A stretch of DNA of 64,000 nucleotides from Psychroflexus tropicus DSM 15496 (lineage in GTDB: Bacteria; Bacteroidota; Bacteroidia; Flavobacteriales; Flavobacteriaceae), in the NCBI RefSeq assembly GCF_000378765.1, contig NZ_KB905342.1:372001-436000 (forward strand). The letters are read 5' to 3'. The notes beneath the pieces are model-generated. The model was given only the letters and a program-made list of their open reading frames with translations. It searched no databases and had not been told where the DNA came from. Position numbers and translations under genes: made by a program. Shown piece after piece: positions 51,965 through 58,472 of the stretch. How positions within the stretch are numbered: the first letter of the stretch is position 1; the number at the start of each line of letters is the position of its first letter.

Positions 51965-53311
51965 TTATTTATCATAATAGATATGAGTGCTATAAAAATG
52001 GTTAAAGTCTCGTATTGAGTCTTTTTCCTTTGGAATATAACCTATTTGAATATGATTTGAACCCTTTTTTAATTTAGAAAGCTCTATTGGAATCATTTGA
52101 TAGAGTGAATCAATTTCATTACTAATTTTAATTTCCCCATTTACAATGGCTAAGATTTGCATTATGTCTTCTTTTTCGTGTCTCAAAGGCTTAAAGGGAA
52201 TTAATAATTTTTTATCATATTCAAATGCCTTTGAATAGATTACAGCGTAATCTGACTCTGTATTCTTAGTAAAATGCAATATTTCATTTTTATTATTGCT
52301 ATTATCTGGATTCGCTATCCAAGGATCTTTATTAATTTCACTTTCATAATAATTTATCCAGAATTTTAAGTCTGAATCAATTTTGAATGATTTAATGAAG
52401 TTTTCAGAAATCTTTCTGTAAACATCATTTTTAGGATATGATGTTATAATTTGATATGTACGATCATTGTTAGGAATAAATACATCAACACTTTCTTTTG
52501 ATTCTGTACTGTCTATTGAAGTAATTTTTAAAGCTTTAAGACCATCAATCAATAATGAATCAATTTTAATTACATTAATATTTGATTCATTATTAGGGTT
52601 TTCATAGTCATTAGCATTTGTACTGTACACATAGTCATAAATTGTAATGATTTCAAGTCGAATGTTATTTTGAGAAGTATACAAAGAGGAATTGATCATG
52701 TCTGGATATAAATGAAATTCATGAGTTGGCAACGATGAAAAAAATACTTCAGCACCATCAAAACTCAATTCTTCATTTTGATTTCTTTTTGCAACTTGAT
52801 TTAAAGAATCAATTTTATATTCCCAATAAATTTGACTTTCTCTATCTAAGTTATGTTTAGTTTCTTTATCGTAATTTGATTGAAGTAGATTTACAACAGA
52901 TAGTAAAGAGTCTCTTGCATATTTAGCTTCTGAAAATGAAAGACCTTTTTTAAGTATTAAATTATTCAAAGCATTCGTTCCATAATCTGTAATATGAGCG
53001 TGATAATGTTCATGAACTAACAAATCATCAGATTCAAGGATTCCAAAATCAACCCATGATTGATATCTATCAAAAATGGTTTCTGCGTAGATTGAGTCTT
53101 TTATTTTCTTGATTTTAATTGTTGTTGCTATTGATGCATTATAATCACTTAAAAGATCAGGTACTCCAAAAAAATCTTTGAAAGTAAGAGATCCAACATC
53201 ATTTAATACGATATATCGCTCAGCGTGTTCAGATTCATTCTTGGTTATTATTGTTATTACTACTAATACTGTCAAAAGTATTGAAGATAAAACAACTTTT
53301 GGTTTGATCAT
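51965..53311 (-). CDS. Putative zinc metallopeptidase-like protein with HExxH
   Basis: 448 residues. An N-terminal segment (residues about 7-23) may be a signal or anchor. The motif DDLLVHEHYHAHITDYGTNALNNLI (residues about 100-125) contains HExxH and resembles the zinc site of DUF922-like secreted proteases. The remaining 300 residues are mixed and carry no other motif that I recognise. Its start codon overlaps the stop of the upstream four-span membrane gene (ATGA), so translation is coupled and the two may form a unit. Confidence 0.6.
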   Translation of the reverse strand: MIKPKVVLSSILLTVLVVITIITKNESEHAERYIVLNDVGSLTFKDFFGVPDLLSDYNASIATTIKIKKIKDSIYAETIFDRYQSWVDFGILESDDLLVHEHYHAHITDYGTNALNNLILKKGLSFSEAKYARDSLLSVVNLLQSNYDKETKHNLDRESQIYWEYKIDSLNQVAKRNQNEELSFDGAEVFFSSLPTHEFHLYPDMINSSLYTSQNNIRLEIITIYDYVYSTNANDYENPNNESNINVIKIDSLLIDGLKALKITSIDSTESKESVDVFIPNNDRTYQIITSYPKNDVYRKISENFIKSFKIDSDLKFWINYYESEINKDPWIANPDNSNNKNEILHFTKNTESDYAVIYSKAFEYDKKLLIPFKPLRHEKEDIMQILAIVNGEIKISNEIDSLYQMIPIELSKLKKGSNHIQIGYIPKEKDSIRDFNHFYSTHIYYDK

Positions 53312-53718
53312 ACGGACTTTGATTTTGATAGTAATCTTAATGAATAATGAAAAATTGTACCAAGGACAAATACGAATATGATATTAATTAAAATCAAATG
53401 AGTAAAGTCCGCTAAAAACCAATATCCTGTATAGTTTAGAACTAAAAATTGAAATAAAGTGGTTAATAGAACAAGAAGAATGTTTGTTAAAAATCTATTT
53501 TTGAAAGACATTTTTTTCGCAGACATTAAAGAATTTCTCGACGTATAGATTCCTAAAACATAAATTAAACTTATTATTAAGTAGTTAATTAAGGGCTTAA
53601 TTTTCACGCCAATACCGTAAGCTAAAATTCCAAATAGTAAAATTGACAGTGTGATTATAAAGCTACCATTAATTACATCTATAAAAGCACCAACTTTTTT
53701 TATTTTTTTTAGGTTCAT
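53308..53718 (-). CDS. Four-span membrane protein, coupled to the HExxH gene
   Basis: About 136 residues from the ATG at 53718; an ATG at 53727 and a TTG at 53742 are alternatives. Four hydrophobic segments (SFIITLSILLFGILAYGIGV, LINYLIISLIYVLGIY, TNILLVLLTTLFQFLVLNY, LTHLILINIIFVFVLGTIF) and a basic C-terminal end. No family recognised. The overlap with the HExxH gene suggests a joint role. Confidence 0.6.
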   Translation of the reverse strand: MNLKKIKKVGAFIDVINGSFIITLSILLFGILAYGIGVKIKPLINYLIISLIYVLGIYTSRNSLMSAKKMSFKNRFLTNILLVLLTTLFQFLVLNYTGYWFLADFTHLILINIIFVFVLGTIFHYSLRLLSKSKSV

Positions 53719-53836
53719 AAAAACCATTATATAATCTTTCAATTTTTTGTCAATTATTCAAGATGCCAATGTTTTTTATAAAATTACACACAACTAGTTA
53801 TATGTTTATAAAAATACACCTTTATTGGAAACAGTT

Positions 53837-53873
53837 ACGGGATAAACGCATGTTTTTATAAAGTTTATCCCGT
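53837..53873. repeat. Inverted repeat, 11-bp arms
   Basis: ACGGGATAAAC (53837-53847) and GTTTATCCCGT (53863-53873) are perfect complements around a 15-base loop. Its role is unknown. Confidence 0.7.
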
Positions 53874-54002
53874 GAATACGATATACTTAAAGTTATTTCA
53901 TCCCCTTCAGACCTCATCTTCACTCAGATGGATCTTAAAGATAACGAAGGCCTTAAGCAATGTATCGCTCATGATAAAAGCTAACTAAGGCAGATTCAAA
54001 CT

Positions 54003-54213: not shown

Positions 54214-56439
54214 TTACTCCTTATCGATCTCCACCTCATCTACGGCGCCCAGCAATTCAAAATCGATGGTACGTTTCACTAAGTCGGCTTTCTTCACCCG
54301 AACGTACACCTCGTCGCCGAGCTGATACATTTTCTTGGTGCGACGACCGATGACGGCATAATGCTCCTCGTTAAAGTCGTAGTGGTCGTCTGGGATGTCT
54401 TTGAGGCGGGTCATACCTTCGCACTTGTTCTCGATGATCTCGATAAAAATACCAAAGTCGGTCACCCCGGAAATAACGCCTTTAAATTCGGTTTCGGAAT
54501 GCTCTTGGATGTACTTCACTTGCATGTACTTGATGGAATCCCGCTCGGCATTGGTGGCCAGTTTTTCCATCTCGCTAGAATGCTTGCATTTGTCTTCGTA
54601 TTCGGTTTCGCTAGCACTGGGTTTGTTATCCAGATAGCGCTGTAATAGGCGGTGAGCCATCACATCGGGATAACGTCGTATCGGCGAGGTAAAGTGGGAA
54701 TAATAATCGAACGCCAGTCCATAGTGCCCAATGTTTTCGGTAGAATAGTAGGCCTTACTCATGGTACGTATGGTGAGGGTATCGACCAGGTTTTGTTCCT
54801 TTTTGCCCGACACATCTTCCAACAAATTGTTAAGGGCGTTGGCCAGGTTTTTTCGGTTTTGGATGTTGATGTTATAGCCAAATTTAGAAATAACAGTATT
54901 CAAAGCTTCCAGTCGGTCGTCTTTAGGTTCGTCGTGACAACGGTACACAAAGGTTTTGGGTGGCTTGCGTTTACCGATAAACTCAGAGACTTTTCTATTG
55001 GCCAGCAGCATAAATTCTTCGATGAGTTTATTGGCATCCTTGCTGGACTTCACGTAAACGCCCTGCGGATTGTTATCTTCATCCAAGTGGAATTTTACTT
55101 CCACCTTATCAAAAGAAATAGCCCCTTTTTGCATCCGCTTTTTACGCATGGTTTTGGCCAGGGTATTCAAAGTGGTCACCGCTTCCAGAATCTCTGGCTG
55201 GACGTCGTAAGCTTTTTTGGTCAAAGAGAGCTCTGCAGGAATGTGTTTATCTTCAGAATCGATGAGGTACTGTGCTTCTTCGTAAGCAAATCTTGCATCA
55301 GAATAGGTCACGGTACGTCCAAACCATTCACTTTTGACCTTACCGTCTTTAGTAATTTCGAACAAGGCCGAAAAGGTATATTTTTCTTCATTCGGACGCA
55401 GGGAACAGGCGCCGTTGGATAAAATTTCTGGCAACATCGGTACCACACGGTCTACCAGGTAGATGGAAGTGGCTCGGTTGTAGGCCTCGTCATCCAGAAC
55501 AGTACCTGGTTGCAGATAGTGAGACACATCGGCAATGTGAATACCTATTTCGTAATTGCCATTGTCCATTGTTTTGAAGCTCAAGGCATCGTCAAAATCT
55601 TTGGCGTCGGCAGGATCTATGGTAAAAGTTAGCGTATCTCTTAGATCACGTCGTTTCTTGATTTCAGAGGGATGAATTTTAGTATCTATATTATTGGCAA
55701 ATTCTTCCACCTCGGGTGGGAACTGCTCTGGCAGACCGTAGCCAGCCAGAATCGCATGCATCTCGGTATTGTGTTCGCCAGGAACGCCAAGCACCTCAGT
55801 AATTTCTCCTTTAGGCGAATCGTCCTTGTCTTTCCACTGTAAAATTCGAACTTTTACCAACAAGCCATCTTCGGCATCGTGCATTTTGTCGTTTGGCACA
55901 AAAATATCGGTGTACATCTTGGAATTGGCAACTACCACAAAGCCAAACTTTTCCTGCTTGTGTAAAACCCCAACAAAGTCGGTTTTATTTCGGGTTAAAA
56001 TCGATACGACTTCACCTTCAGATTTTGCTTTCTCGCGCTTTTTGAAAACGTAAATTTTCACTTCGTCGCCATCTAAAGCGTGGTTGAGGTTTTTATTGGA
56101 AATATAAATGTCATTCTCCAGATCTTCCACGATCACATAGGCATCACCTCTGGAGGTCATGTCGATGATCCCGGTATGGAAATCCTCTAAAGCGTCAAAT
56201 TGAAATTTCTTATCGTCCACTTGTTTTAATTGGCCTTTGGCTGTGAGCTGACCCAAAAGACGAATTACCTTATTTCTGGTTTTGGTGTCTTCAATCTTCA
56301 GCTTATCTAAAATAACTTTAAAGTCGAAGCTCTTTTCTGGCTGACTTTTAAAAATGTTTAATATTTTTTTTGATAATCCTCCATCCTGACCAGGCGAAGA
56401 GTGGAAAGGCTTTTTACCTTTTTTCTTTTTCTTACTCAT
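54214..56439 (-). CDS. rnr: Ribonuclease R
   Basis: 3'-5' exoribonuclease that degrades structured RNA. 741 residues. N-terminal winged-helix/cold-shock region (residues about 20-230), the RNB catalytic domain with DTLTFTIDPADAKDFDDALSF (Asp ligands near residue 275), and a C-terminal S1 domain (about 650-730, FKGVISGVTDFGIFIEI). Length is normal for RNase R. Transcribed leftward, away from the origin candidate. Confidence 0.96.
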   Translation of the reverse strand: MSKKKKKGKKPFHSSPGQDGGLSKKILNIFKSQPEKSFDFKVILDKLKIEDTKTRNKVIRLLGQLTAKGQLKQVDDKKFQFDALEDFHTGIIDMTSRGDAYVIVEDLENDIYISNKNLNHALDGDEVKIYVFKKREKAKSEGEVVSILTRNKTDFVGVLHKQEKFGFVVVANSKMYTDIFVPNDKMHDAEDGLLVKVRILQWKDKDDSPKGEITEVLGVPGEHNTEMHAILAGYGLPEQFPPEVEEFANNIDTKIHPSEIKKRRDLRDTLTFTIDPADAKDFDDALSFKTMDNGNYEIGIHIADVSHYLQPGTVLDDEAYNRATSIYLVDRVVPMLPEILSNGACSLRPNEEKYTFSALFEITKDGKVKSEWFGRTVTYSDARFAYEEAQYLIDSEDKHIPAELSLTKKAYDVQPEILEAVTTLNTLAKTMRKKRMQKGAISFDKVEVKFHLDEDNNPQGVYVKSSKDANKLIEEFMLLANRKVSEFIGKRKPPKTFVYRCHDEPKDDRLEALNTVISKFGYNINIQNRKNLANALNNLLEDVSGKKEQNLVDTLTIRTMSKAYYSTENIGHYGLAFDYYSHFTSPIRRYPDVMAHRLLQRYLDNKPSASETEYEDKCKHSSEMEKLATNAERDSIKYMQVKYIQEHSETEFKGVISGVTDFGIFIEIIENKCEGMTRLKDIPDDHYDFNEEHYAVIGRRTKKMYQLGDEVYVRVKKADLVKRTIDFELLGAVDEVEIDKE

Positions 56440-56849: not shown

Positions 56850-57089
56850 ATGAACGATTTTATTAAGCTTGCTGTATTTACCTATCCTCACGAATACACC
56901 GTGCTTAAATTGCTTTTGGAAAAAGAAGATATTCGTTTTTTCTTTCAAAATGAAACCGTCATTGGGGTGATTCCCTTTTATTCTAATGCTTTGGGTGGAA
57001 TTTTCTTAAAAGTACATCCTGAGGATTTCGAAGCGGCTAAAAGCATCCTGGAAGATTATAATTTTGAAAATCACCTGAGGATCGTTTAA
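56850..57089 (+). CDS. DUF2007-family putative signal-transducing protein
   Basis: 79 residues filling one DUF2007 domain (LAVFTYPHEYTVLKLLLEKEDIRFFFQNETVIG ... GIFLKVHPEDFEAAKSIL). A small ferredoxin-like fold usually seen as a stand-alone or fused sensor with unknown ligand. Last gene before the origin candidate. Confidence 0.85.
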   Translation: MNDFIKLAVFTYPHEYTVLKLLLEKEDIRFFFQNETVIGVIPFYSNALGGIFLKVHPEDFEAAKSILEDYNFENHLRIV

Positions 57090-57136: not shown

Positions 57137-57307
57137 TGTCAATTCGAGTGAATTTCACAATTGAAATGAGGGAAATTTGTATCGAGAATAAGAATTTTTA
57201 GATGTGAATGGGTTCTCGACCTGTCGGATGGCTGGTACAATTTTGTATCAAAAAATCACCCGCCTGAATGACTTCGTTGGGCAGTCTCGAACTGACATTA
57301 TGATATC
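57137..57307. repeat. Inverted pair of TGTCA/TCGAG repeats
   Basis: TGTCAATTCGAG (57137-57148) and CTCGAACTGACA (57296-57307) are inverted complements with one mismatch. Nested inside are TCGAGAA (57182-57188) and TTCTCGA (from 57212). The pattern is two head-to-head copies of one module, the right one longer (about 98 against 52 bases). Confidence 0.65.
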
Positions 57308-57380
57308 TATTTCAATTCAAAATGCACATGGGAATTTTCAATTCTTTTTGATAGATATTTTAGATCTGAAATTAGTTTCG

Positions 57381-57850
57381 TTTTCCACTTATCCACAATC
57401 TATAATACTATTCTTCTTTTTTTTTAAAATTTAAAATTAATAATGATGATGATTATTGTGCGTTAATAACTGGAAAACTTTTACCTCATCTATTTTGATT
57501 TTTCAAATTTTGACTTTATCCACATTTTTTAAGCTTTTAAAATTTCCCCAACGTTCTTATTTTCAAATGTATTTCTAAAAGTTATCCACAATTGGACATC
57601 TGCTTTTCACATGTTTTGTTGAATAAGTATTTTTGAATTTGCTGTGGAAAACTTTTAAAAGGACTTGCAAAACTTTTTTGAAATTTGCTTCCTAAAAATT
57701 TTGTTAAATAAAATCTTTACTTATCTAGTTTTTAAATTTGATAATCCAAATTTTTAGTTCCTTTTTTCTATACGAGTTTTCCACATGTTTTAAAAAGTTG
57801 AAGTCCCTAAAAGCTGATTTACTTTTGAGTTTTCCACAATTGTGGACAGC
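57381..57850. other. Probable chromosomal replication origin (oriC)
   Basis: Three perfect DnaA boxes TTATCCACA (57389-57397, 57516-57524, 57582-57590) and three TTTTCCACA boxes (57777-57785, 57830-57838, and inverted at 57643-57651), plus degenerate ones such as TTTTCCACT at 57381 and CTGTCCACA inverted at 57841. An AT-only stretch, 57411-57455 (ttcttttttttttaaaattt...), could be the unwinding element. All are in gene-free DNA, between leftward rnr and rightward rpiB. Confidence 0.72.
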
Positions 57851-57933
57851 GCTTAGGTATACATGATACTATAATGAAAATCAAGGATTTACATACCATC
57901 AGTTTAGCAGTACTAGGTTCCTAATTTTAATAC

Positions 57934-58040: not shown

Positions 58041-58472
58041 ATGACTATATCTTTAGGAAACGATCACGCAGGCCCGGCTTACAAAAACGCTATCACCGAA
58101 TACCTGACCTCACAATCTTTAAAAGTGATTAACCACGGCACCGACTCTGAAGATTCTGTAGATTATCCAGATTTTGTACATCCAGTGGCAGAGGATGTTG
58201 AAAAAGGGACTTCAGACTTTGGTATCATTATATGTGGTAGTGGAAACGGAGCTAATATGACTGCTAATAAGCATCAGGGCGTGAGATCGGCCCTATGCTG
58301 GAACACAGAACTCGTGGCTTTAGCCAGACAGCATAATGATGCTAACGTATTGAGTATTCCCGCTCGATTTGTCTCTCAGGAGGAAGCTTTAGATTTTGTA
58401 AAGGTCTTTCTAGACACTGATTTTGAAGGCGGACGTCATCAAAATCGCGTGGCTAAAATCGCCTGCCAATAA
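58041..58472 (+). CDS. rpiB: Ribose-5-phosphate isomerase B
   Basis: Interconverts ribose-5-phosphate and ribulose-5-phosphate in the pentose phosphate pathway. 143 residues, the normal RpiB length. MTISLGNDHAG carries the substrate-binding Asp8-His9, IIICGSGNGANM contains the catalytic Cys65, and the C-terminal FEGGRHQNRV is typical. It lies next to the origin candidate, transcribed away from it. LacA/B-type sugar isomerases share the fold but RpiB is the usual role here. Confidence 0.95.
   Translation: MTISLGNDHAGPAYKNAITEYLTSQSLKVINHGTDSEDSVDYPDFVHPVAEDVEKGTSDFGIIICGSGNGANMTANKHQGVRSALCWNTELVALARQHNDANVLSIPARFVSQEEALDFVKVFLDTDFEGGRHQNRVAKIACQ

Follow-up and report, generated by a model that had tools for sequence, protein, structure and literature searches.

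A probable DnaA-type replication origin upstream of rpiB in Psychroflexus tropicus and a possible joint change of its boxes and initiator within the genus

In the window analysed here, a 64,000-nucleotide stretch of Psychroflexus tropicus DSM 15496 (C1:372001-436000 of the draft assembly G000), positions 57381-57850 very probably constitute a chromosomal origin of replication (oriC) of the DnaA type. The preliminary description of this DNA had proposed such an origin, and its interpretation is supported by the comparisons presented below. As a place of initiation the site is well supported and ordinary in kind; the case becomes more interesting than first noted through an apparent switch in its DnaA boxes and in the initiator protein, which, judging from sequence comparison, may have changed specificity together within the genus.

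The DnaA-box cluster and its surroundings

Six exact DnaA boxes span 57389-57838 upstream of rpiB, with successive spacings of 127-66-61-134-53 bp. B1 (57389-57397), B2 (57516-57524) and B3 (57582-57590) have the sequence TTATCCACA, while B4 (57643-57651), B5 (57777-57785) and B6 (57830-57838) have the sequence TTTTCCACA; all lie on the forward strand except for B4, the sole inverted strict box. They had previously been counted as six near-consensus boxes in about 450 bases, and each one proves to be an exact match. Moreover, a near-consensus box TTTTCCACT (57381-57389, forward strand), detected by the mismatch scan and conserved in part, abuts B1, a degenerate box TTTTCCAGT (57469-57477, reverse strand) is located within the most conserved stretch outside the boxes; in all, ten sites with one or two mismatches accompany the six exact boxes in 57370-57870. 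The AACTGGA motif at the 57469-57477 box is invariant in all 12 aligned rows, 11 of which are distinct, as the P. gondwanensis row repeats G004.

The window holds eight TTWTCCACA sequences versus 1.75 expected, a number reached by none of 100 shuffles, and six of the eight fall in the cluster. Throughout the assembly (3.0 Mb, 16-contig draft) there are 97 strict boxes in total (51 + 46), and the six strict boxes per 450 bp of the cluster compare with two in the next densest 500 bp (Poisson P for at least six per 460 bp about 1.5e-14). A similar box density in other intergenic regions had been named in advance as an observation that would speak against an origin, and nowhere else in the 3.0 Mb assembly do 500 bp contain more than two strict boxes. 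The cluster is located in intergenic DNA and is unique in the genome, as is expected of an oriC of the DnaA type. Two strict boxes within 500 bp occur elsewhere only at C1:486926-486946, C3:235968-236066, C3:114227-114270 and C2:753745-753780, and these four places are candidates for datA/DARS-like or gene-regulatory sites. A plasmid search using the origin DNA gave no match, and no parS-like site was found in the window at up to two mismatches.

An AT-only run of 28 bp, a candidate DNA unwinding element (DUE), is present at 57417-57444. It had been described as lying beside the boxes; the run does exist, but its position is between B1 and B2. According to a review, DUEs sit beside box clusters and never within them (PMC4285127), and the placement of the run therefore counts against the oriC reading. 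No DnaA-trio (3'-[G/A]A[T/A] repeats beside a box) was recognised by eye, the repeat at 57443-57453 having its letters in another order. The alignment of relatives also revealed a conserved element, ATGATGATTATT..CGT..A.AACTGGAAAACTTTT, at 57440-57482. Two 9-mers of a related element, ATAACCATC and AACACGCTA, are enriched upstream of rpiB in other Flavobacteriaceae; they represent the reverse strand of ATGATGGTTAT...AGCGTGTT, which resembles the conserved stretch 57440-57482.

On the left, the cluster is flanked by rnr, encoding ribonuclease R (54214-56439, reverse strand), and by a gene for a small protein weakly similar to DUF2007, below the Pfam cut-off (56850-57089, forward strand), and on the right by rpiB (58041-58472, forward strand). 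The last gene, whose product is 82% identical to RpiB of Psychroflexus aurantiacus, served as the anchor for comparisons. The cluster, earlier considered gene-free, is so but for a 76-codon GTG ORF (57204-57434) that is apparently spurious. Gene directions had also been put forward as a sign of a divergent origin, and they agree with it in part: in the sample directly to the left of the site (C1 412,001-429,400) every ORF of at least 600 nt points left, and rightward transcription is seen for rpiB and for the cation-efflux and GNAT genes. The exceptions are the small gene at 56850-57089, which points right although it is on the left side, and the S41 peptidase gene, rnpA and pgk on the right side (59.8-63.0 kb), which point left. 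Taken alone, gene direction is a weak argument. The dnaA gene was expected outside the window and is indeed found at C2:137419, on a contig other than C1, so that the cluster does not have the common, though not defining, location next to dnaA. Among relatives, dnaA is positioned at 0.61 Mb in G026 and at the start of the record in G019. Further to the left in the window, 52001-54000 has a GC content of 27%, compared to 36% and 44% in the 2-kb segments on either side, and contains ORFs at 51965-53311 and 53308-53742; this low-GC stretch is possibly acquired DNA.

Strand skew and orientation of rRNA genes

Raw GC skew was abandoned as an indicator, since it is dominated by gene strand and is negative to the right of the site (2-kb windows within the window), which is the wrong sign for an origin; the wrong sign disappears only once the gene-strand effect is removed. 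Fits of GC3 and TA3 at third codon positions were used instead, with gene strand fitted out and 200 gene bootstraps, on sampled stretches rather than whole genomes. In C1 of P. tropicus, the skew switch is placed at 390-462 kb (5-95% of the 200 gene bootstraps), an interval that contains the cluster at 429.6 kb. The sign change in replication-strand skew is therefore present at the site in the strand-corrected fit and absent in raw skew, and the skew check suggested in the preliminary description comes out in favour of an origin, with a resolution in the tens of kb. The optimum of the fit is at 390 kb, a distance of 40 kb from the cluster, whose own position scores 4.5 log units less; the profile is uneven between 380 and 460 kb, and outside 380-470 kb nothing lies within 8.3 log units of the optimum.

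Likewise, in the closed genome G019 the switch falls at 1.02-1.22 Mb and the site at 1.133 Mb, 1.4 log units below the optimum, with the worst point 54 below; a first fit without gene-level resampling (0.94-1.02 Mb) was superseded by this denser sampling. In the closed genome G026, the switch falls at 1.30-2.20 Mb (median 2.06) and the site at 2.013 Mb, 0.1 below the optimum, with the worst point 13 below. In closed F. covae, the switch based on GC3 only is at 0.96-1.02 Mb and rpiB at 0.990 Mb; the joint GC3+TA3 fit spreads over 0.52-2.22 Mb, with TA3 of opposite sign, and this genome is not used as proof.

The 16S genes are oriented consistently with respect to the same site. With the terminus assumed opposite, all seven 16S genes of three closed genomes read away from the rpiB-linked site, that is, 676046(-), 2718737(+) and 3839788(+) in G026, 445750(-) and 1706612(+) in G019, and 2014504(-) and 268114(+) in G020, where the site is at about 2.394 Mb. 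The G000 draft of P. tropicus itself shows no 16S gene.

Skew and rRNA orientation also bear on the possibility that the cluster serves to titrate or reactivate DnaA, as datA or DARS do, with the origin lying elsewhere. Clusters of DnaA boxes at set spacing are found in datA and DARS as well (PMC5742627), and the presence of dnaA on another contig and the 40 kb between the cluster and the skew optimum in C1 would be compatible with such a site. However, a cluster of that kind would be expected away from the skew switch, whereas the switch interval contains the site in C1 and in the two closed relatives, the rRNA genes diverge from it in seven of seven cases, and a second cluster of at least three strict boxes was not found anywhere in the assembly. 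We consider a titration or reactivation site very unlikely.

Conservation of the layout within the genus

A DNA search with 57340-57890 produced matches in 15 of the 27 genus genomes, P. tropicus included. The ten other Ser-type genomes, named after DnaA residue 435 (see below), are 65-76% identical to the window over the matched region, and the six-box layout with inverted B4 is present in all 11 Ser-type genomes of the genus, in six with the exact 127-66-61-134-53 spacing and in five within 1-2 bp. The layout of B3, B5 and B6 is conserved in relatives, as are the inversion of B4 and its 61 and 134 bp spacings, and the place of B1 is kept in 11 of 11 Ser-type genomes, being occupied by TTCTCCACA in G001 and by TTTTCCACA in G026. 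In Ala-type genomes of the genus, the layout scan found no full box at the B2 position. The layout near rpiB was not found in five of the 13 Ala-type genomes scanned, G009, G011, G013, G015 and G021 (L243, L244, L246-L248), in which the origin or rpiB may have moved, and G024 passes narrowly (8.2 versus 7.0); G017 (contig end), G018 (not in the RpiB search) and G023 (no RpiB match) were left out of the scan.

The position of the cluster directly upstream of rpiB could also suggest that the boxes regulate rpiB or other flanking genes and have no part in replication. Yet in P. aurantiacus/P. gondwanensis (L002/L027) the boxes keep their spacing but their distance to rpiB departs by 71 bp from that in the window, so that the box geometry itself seems constrained, and six boxes in 450 bp together with a coinciding skew switch would be unexpected of a promoter. 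A purely regulatory cluster can hardly be correct.

Sites upstream of rpiB in other Flavobacteriaceae

Beyond the genus, a scan for strict TTWTCCACA, reaching up to 1.5 kb in front of rpiB, gave no box in 73 of 80 named loci, some of which have little upstream DNA, and a strict spaced box pattern searched over 299 family genomes (two of them from the genus) matched only G000. Such strict-pattern searching is misleading because relatives use other boxes, their rpiB-upstream regions holding TTWTCAACA and TTWTTAACA instead. The wider set comprised 69 rpiB-upstream regions (71 with at least 500 bp, minus two of the Ser type), including three from Ala-type members of the genus. There, TTWTCAACA occurs 75 times versus 5.9 in shuffles and TTWTTAACA 79 times versus 16.9, compared to 5 versus 1.8 for TTWTCCACA. 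Weak enrichment was observed for TTWTAAACA (42 versus 18.0), TTWTGAACA (14 versus 4.9) and TTWTTCACA (12 versus 4.9).

The six positions were also rated with a layout score that ignores positions 5 and 6 of each box, according to which 47 of the 69 regions beat all 20 shuffles and 22 fail. Once genus members are removed (66 regions), the summed score of the true layout exceeds those of all 300 random layouts, with p<=0.05 reached individually in 36 of the 66. From these patterns, the rpiB-upstream site seems to serve as origin across much of the family Flavobacteriaceae, with boxes that would be mostly TTATCAACA or TTATTAACA (position 6 = A). An origin site common to much of the family but equipped with different boxes is new relative to the preliminary description, and it indicates, by extension, where to look for flavobacterial origins and which box consensus to use; searches with E. 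coli boxes would largely miss them.

DnaA residue 435 and box position 6

Helix 5 of DnaA has the sequence RDHSTVLHSCK in 11 genomes of the genus and RDHATVLHACK in the remaining 16 of the 27; Ser in the clade of P. tropicus, or Ala elsewhere, occupies the position that corresponds to E. coli Thr435. This residue is listed among those contacting bases (PMC5043019, PMC7561715), and according to another study helix 434-451 reads TnCACA and the T435M mutant is defective in box binding (PMC5742627). A sequence search also found 1J1V, a structure of DnaA domain IV in complex with DNA. When eight base-contact positions were compared, 435 was the sole fixed difference. Of the 80 loci in the rpiB set, 50 were covered by a search of the named genomes with a DNA pattern for the helix motif, which gave 48 Ala and 2 Ser; the DnaA protein was checked in 12 of the 50, and the gene is nearly whole in 11 of these 12. 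Ser was found in P. aurantiacus and P. gondwanensis, and both have TTWTCCACA boxes. By coordinates, the named and genus sets overlap (G324=G002, G345=G004, G325=G005, G326=G025, G339=G022), and 45 of the 50 are additional, all with Ala. The residue counts exclude the second DnaA-like hit of G022 (C230, a divergent MAG fragment) as well as weak second hits in G025 and G001.

Second Ser-bearing DnaA-like matches occur in metagenome bins at G022:C230:244-450 (L174, RDHSTVIYSCK) and at G349:C45:9092-9112 (DHSTVIH), the latter in addition to the Ala match of G349 and likewise left out of the counts; they possibly belong to other organisms. An order-wide survey of the DnaA motif gave matches in 239 of 395 genomes. 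G384, a distant member of the order from another family, carries the motif NHTTVVH (G384:C1:1318-1338), with Thr at the 435 position. No box cluster was found there upstream of rpiB nor in the first 20 kb, which hold dnaA, and for this reason Thr435 as a test of convergence decides nothing.

Among full boxes at the layout positions, position 6 is C in 65 of 65 in the Ser clade. The Ala-type genomes of the genus have 28 full boxes, 20 with A6 and 8 with C6, seven of the latter being TTATTCACA (six in the sister clade and one in G022). For the wider set (n=109), the counts are A6 89, C6 12, T6 5 and G6 3, with two genomes counted in both sets (L003 = G005, L018 = G022).

A tree of DnaA domains I-III (387 columns, rooted on Chryseobacterium) was built from 38 of 39 sequences, with the outgroup DnaA FlavJAD, a 116-residue fragment, left out. 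The Ser clade forms one group (support 88), sister to the Ala genomes G005, G012, G019 and G023, and all 15 together have a support of 100. This 15-genome group is nested in an all-Ala background, and the change from Ala to Ser is one event on the tree, which means that the association between box and residue does not amount to causation. Domain IV, the DNA-binding domain, recovers the same 15 genomes when taken alone (100), arguing against domain swapping by gene transfer. In G005, G012 and G019 the boxes are mixed, TTATTCACA being found with TTATCAACA or TTATTAACA, as would be expected of an intermediate; the positions of the C6 boxes differ within this sister clade (B5-B6 in G005, B1 and B3 in G012 and G019).

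The stem leading to the Ser clade measures 0.43 in domain IV versus 0.11 in domains I-III. Columns private to the Ser clade amount to 14 of 95 in domain IV and 8 of 388 elsewhere (Fisher 4.5e-6), the former consisting of Ala435 to Ser and 13 others, while nine other clade splits gave p >= 0.19, with small counts. Compared with the sister clade alone, the differing columns are 24 of 95 in domain IV and 31 of 388 elsewhere.

Considering all this, we lean towards a joint switch of specificity of initiator and origin within one genus, from Ala435/TTATYAACA to Ser435/TTATCCACA; the path would have led by way of an intermediate that tolerated a mixture of TTATTCACA and TTATCAACA/TTATTAACA boxes, such as is still seen in the sister clade. 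It is also conceivable, if somewhat short of probable, that the origin is placed correctly and that box sequence and DnaA residue differ by drift without being coupled: Ala changed to Ser only once, 8 of 28 boxes in Ala-type genomes are already C6, and the E. coli consensus allows any base at position 5 (PMC5043019). Drift fits less well with C6 in 65 of 65 boxes with Ser versus A6 in 20 of 28 with Ala, with acceleration of domain IV on the Ser branch only, among the splits tested, or with a fixed difference at 435 alone of the eight named base-contacting positions, and TnCACA, the sequence reportedly read by the recognition helix, has a fixed C at position 6. Within the joint switch, residue 435 and base 6 would be the coupled pair, as we infer from one event, and changes elsewhere in domain IV may be just as important as residue 435.

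A model of the origin and its possible change

In regard to the mechanism, DnaA, supplied from another contig, would bind the six strong boxes B1-B6 and several weak ones. After oligomerising, the bound protein would open the AT-rich DNA that separates B1 from B2, and a pair of forks would leave the predicted origin in opposite directions. In the clade of P. tropicus, the model supposes that domain IV changed (Ala435 to Ser and 13 private columns) and that the six boxes took C6 with spacing and orientation kept; the kept spacing suggests that the higher-order complex was conserved while the contact between protein and base was retuned.

If such a switch took place, close relatives would hold partly orthogonal initiator-origin pairs, and, provided that boxes and DnaA changed together as appears, the genus would represent a natural experiment in initiator-origin co-evolution. 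The question posed is how an essential initiator and all of its sites can change specificity without loss of replication. As two end states and an apparent intermediate survive at constant geometry among environmental bacteria that are close relatives, the path could be tested for each residue and each box in turn.

Comparison with known systems

Co-evolution of DnaA and its boxes has already been stated as a general idea (PMC4285127). Among the matches listed in the open-licence literature, there was no paper on a Psychroflexus origin, whose location may be catalogued in DoriC or in subscription journals, and nothing on TTATYAACA boxes with Ala435 in flavobacteria.

The site resembles oriC of E. 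coli, with its TTATnCACA boxes and AT-rich DUE (PMC5742627), in having consensus boxes and an AT-rich run, in being intergenic, and in its fixed order and orientation of boxes. On the other hand, it is longer (450 versus 245 bp for the minimal E. coli origin), has five strict boxes pointing one way and one inverted, and carries its AT run between B1 and B2; a DnaA-trio was not recognised in it. Another parallel is the predicted oriC of Elizabethkingia meningoseptica, which is also flavobacterial, far from dnaA and provided with AT-rich DUEs, thus giving a flavobacterial precedent for an origin distant from dnaA (PMC8994065). It has three boxes within one mismatch of TTATCCACA, and is a prediction only, presented in the available portion of that paper without layout or analysis of DnaA residues.

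The origins of epsilonproteobacteria, with their TTCAC-core boxes, are similar in that a lineage-specific box core has been tentatively tied to DnaA residues 435 and 438-439; their boxes have T at position 5, and the species do not share a box pattern (PMC5043019). In Psychroflexus, unlike in epsilonproteobacteria, it is position 6 that changes, the layout is kept, and the apparent switch falls inside one genus.
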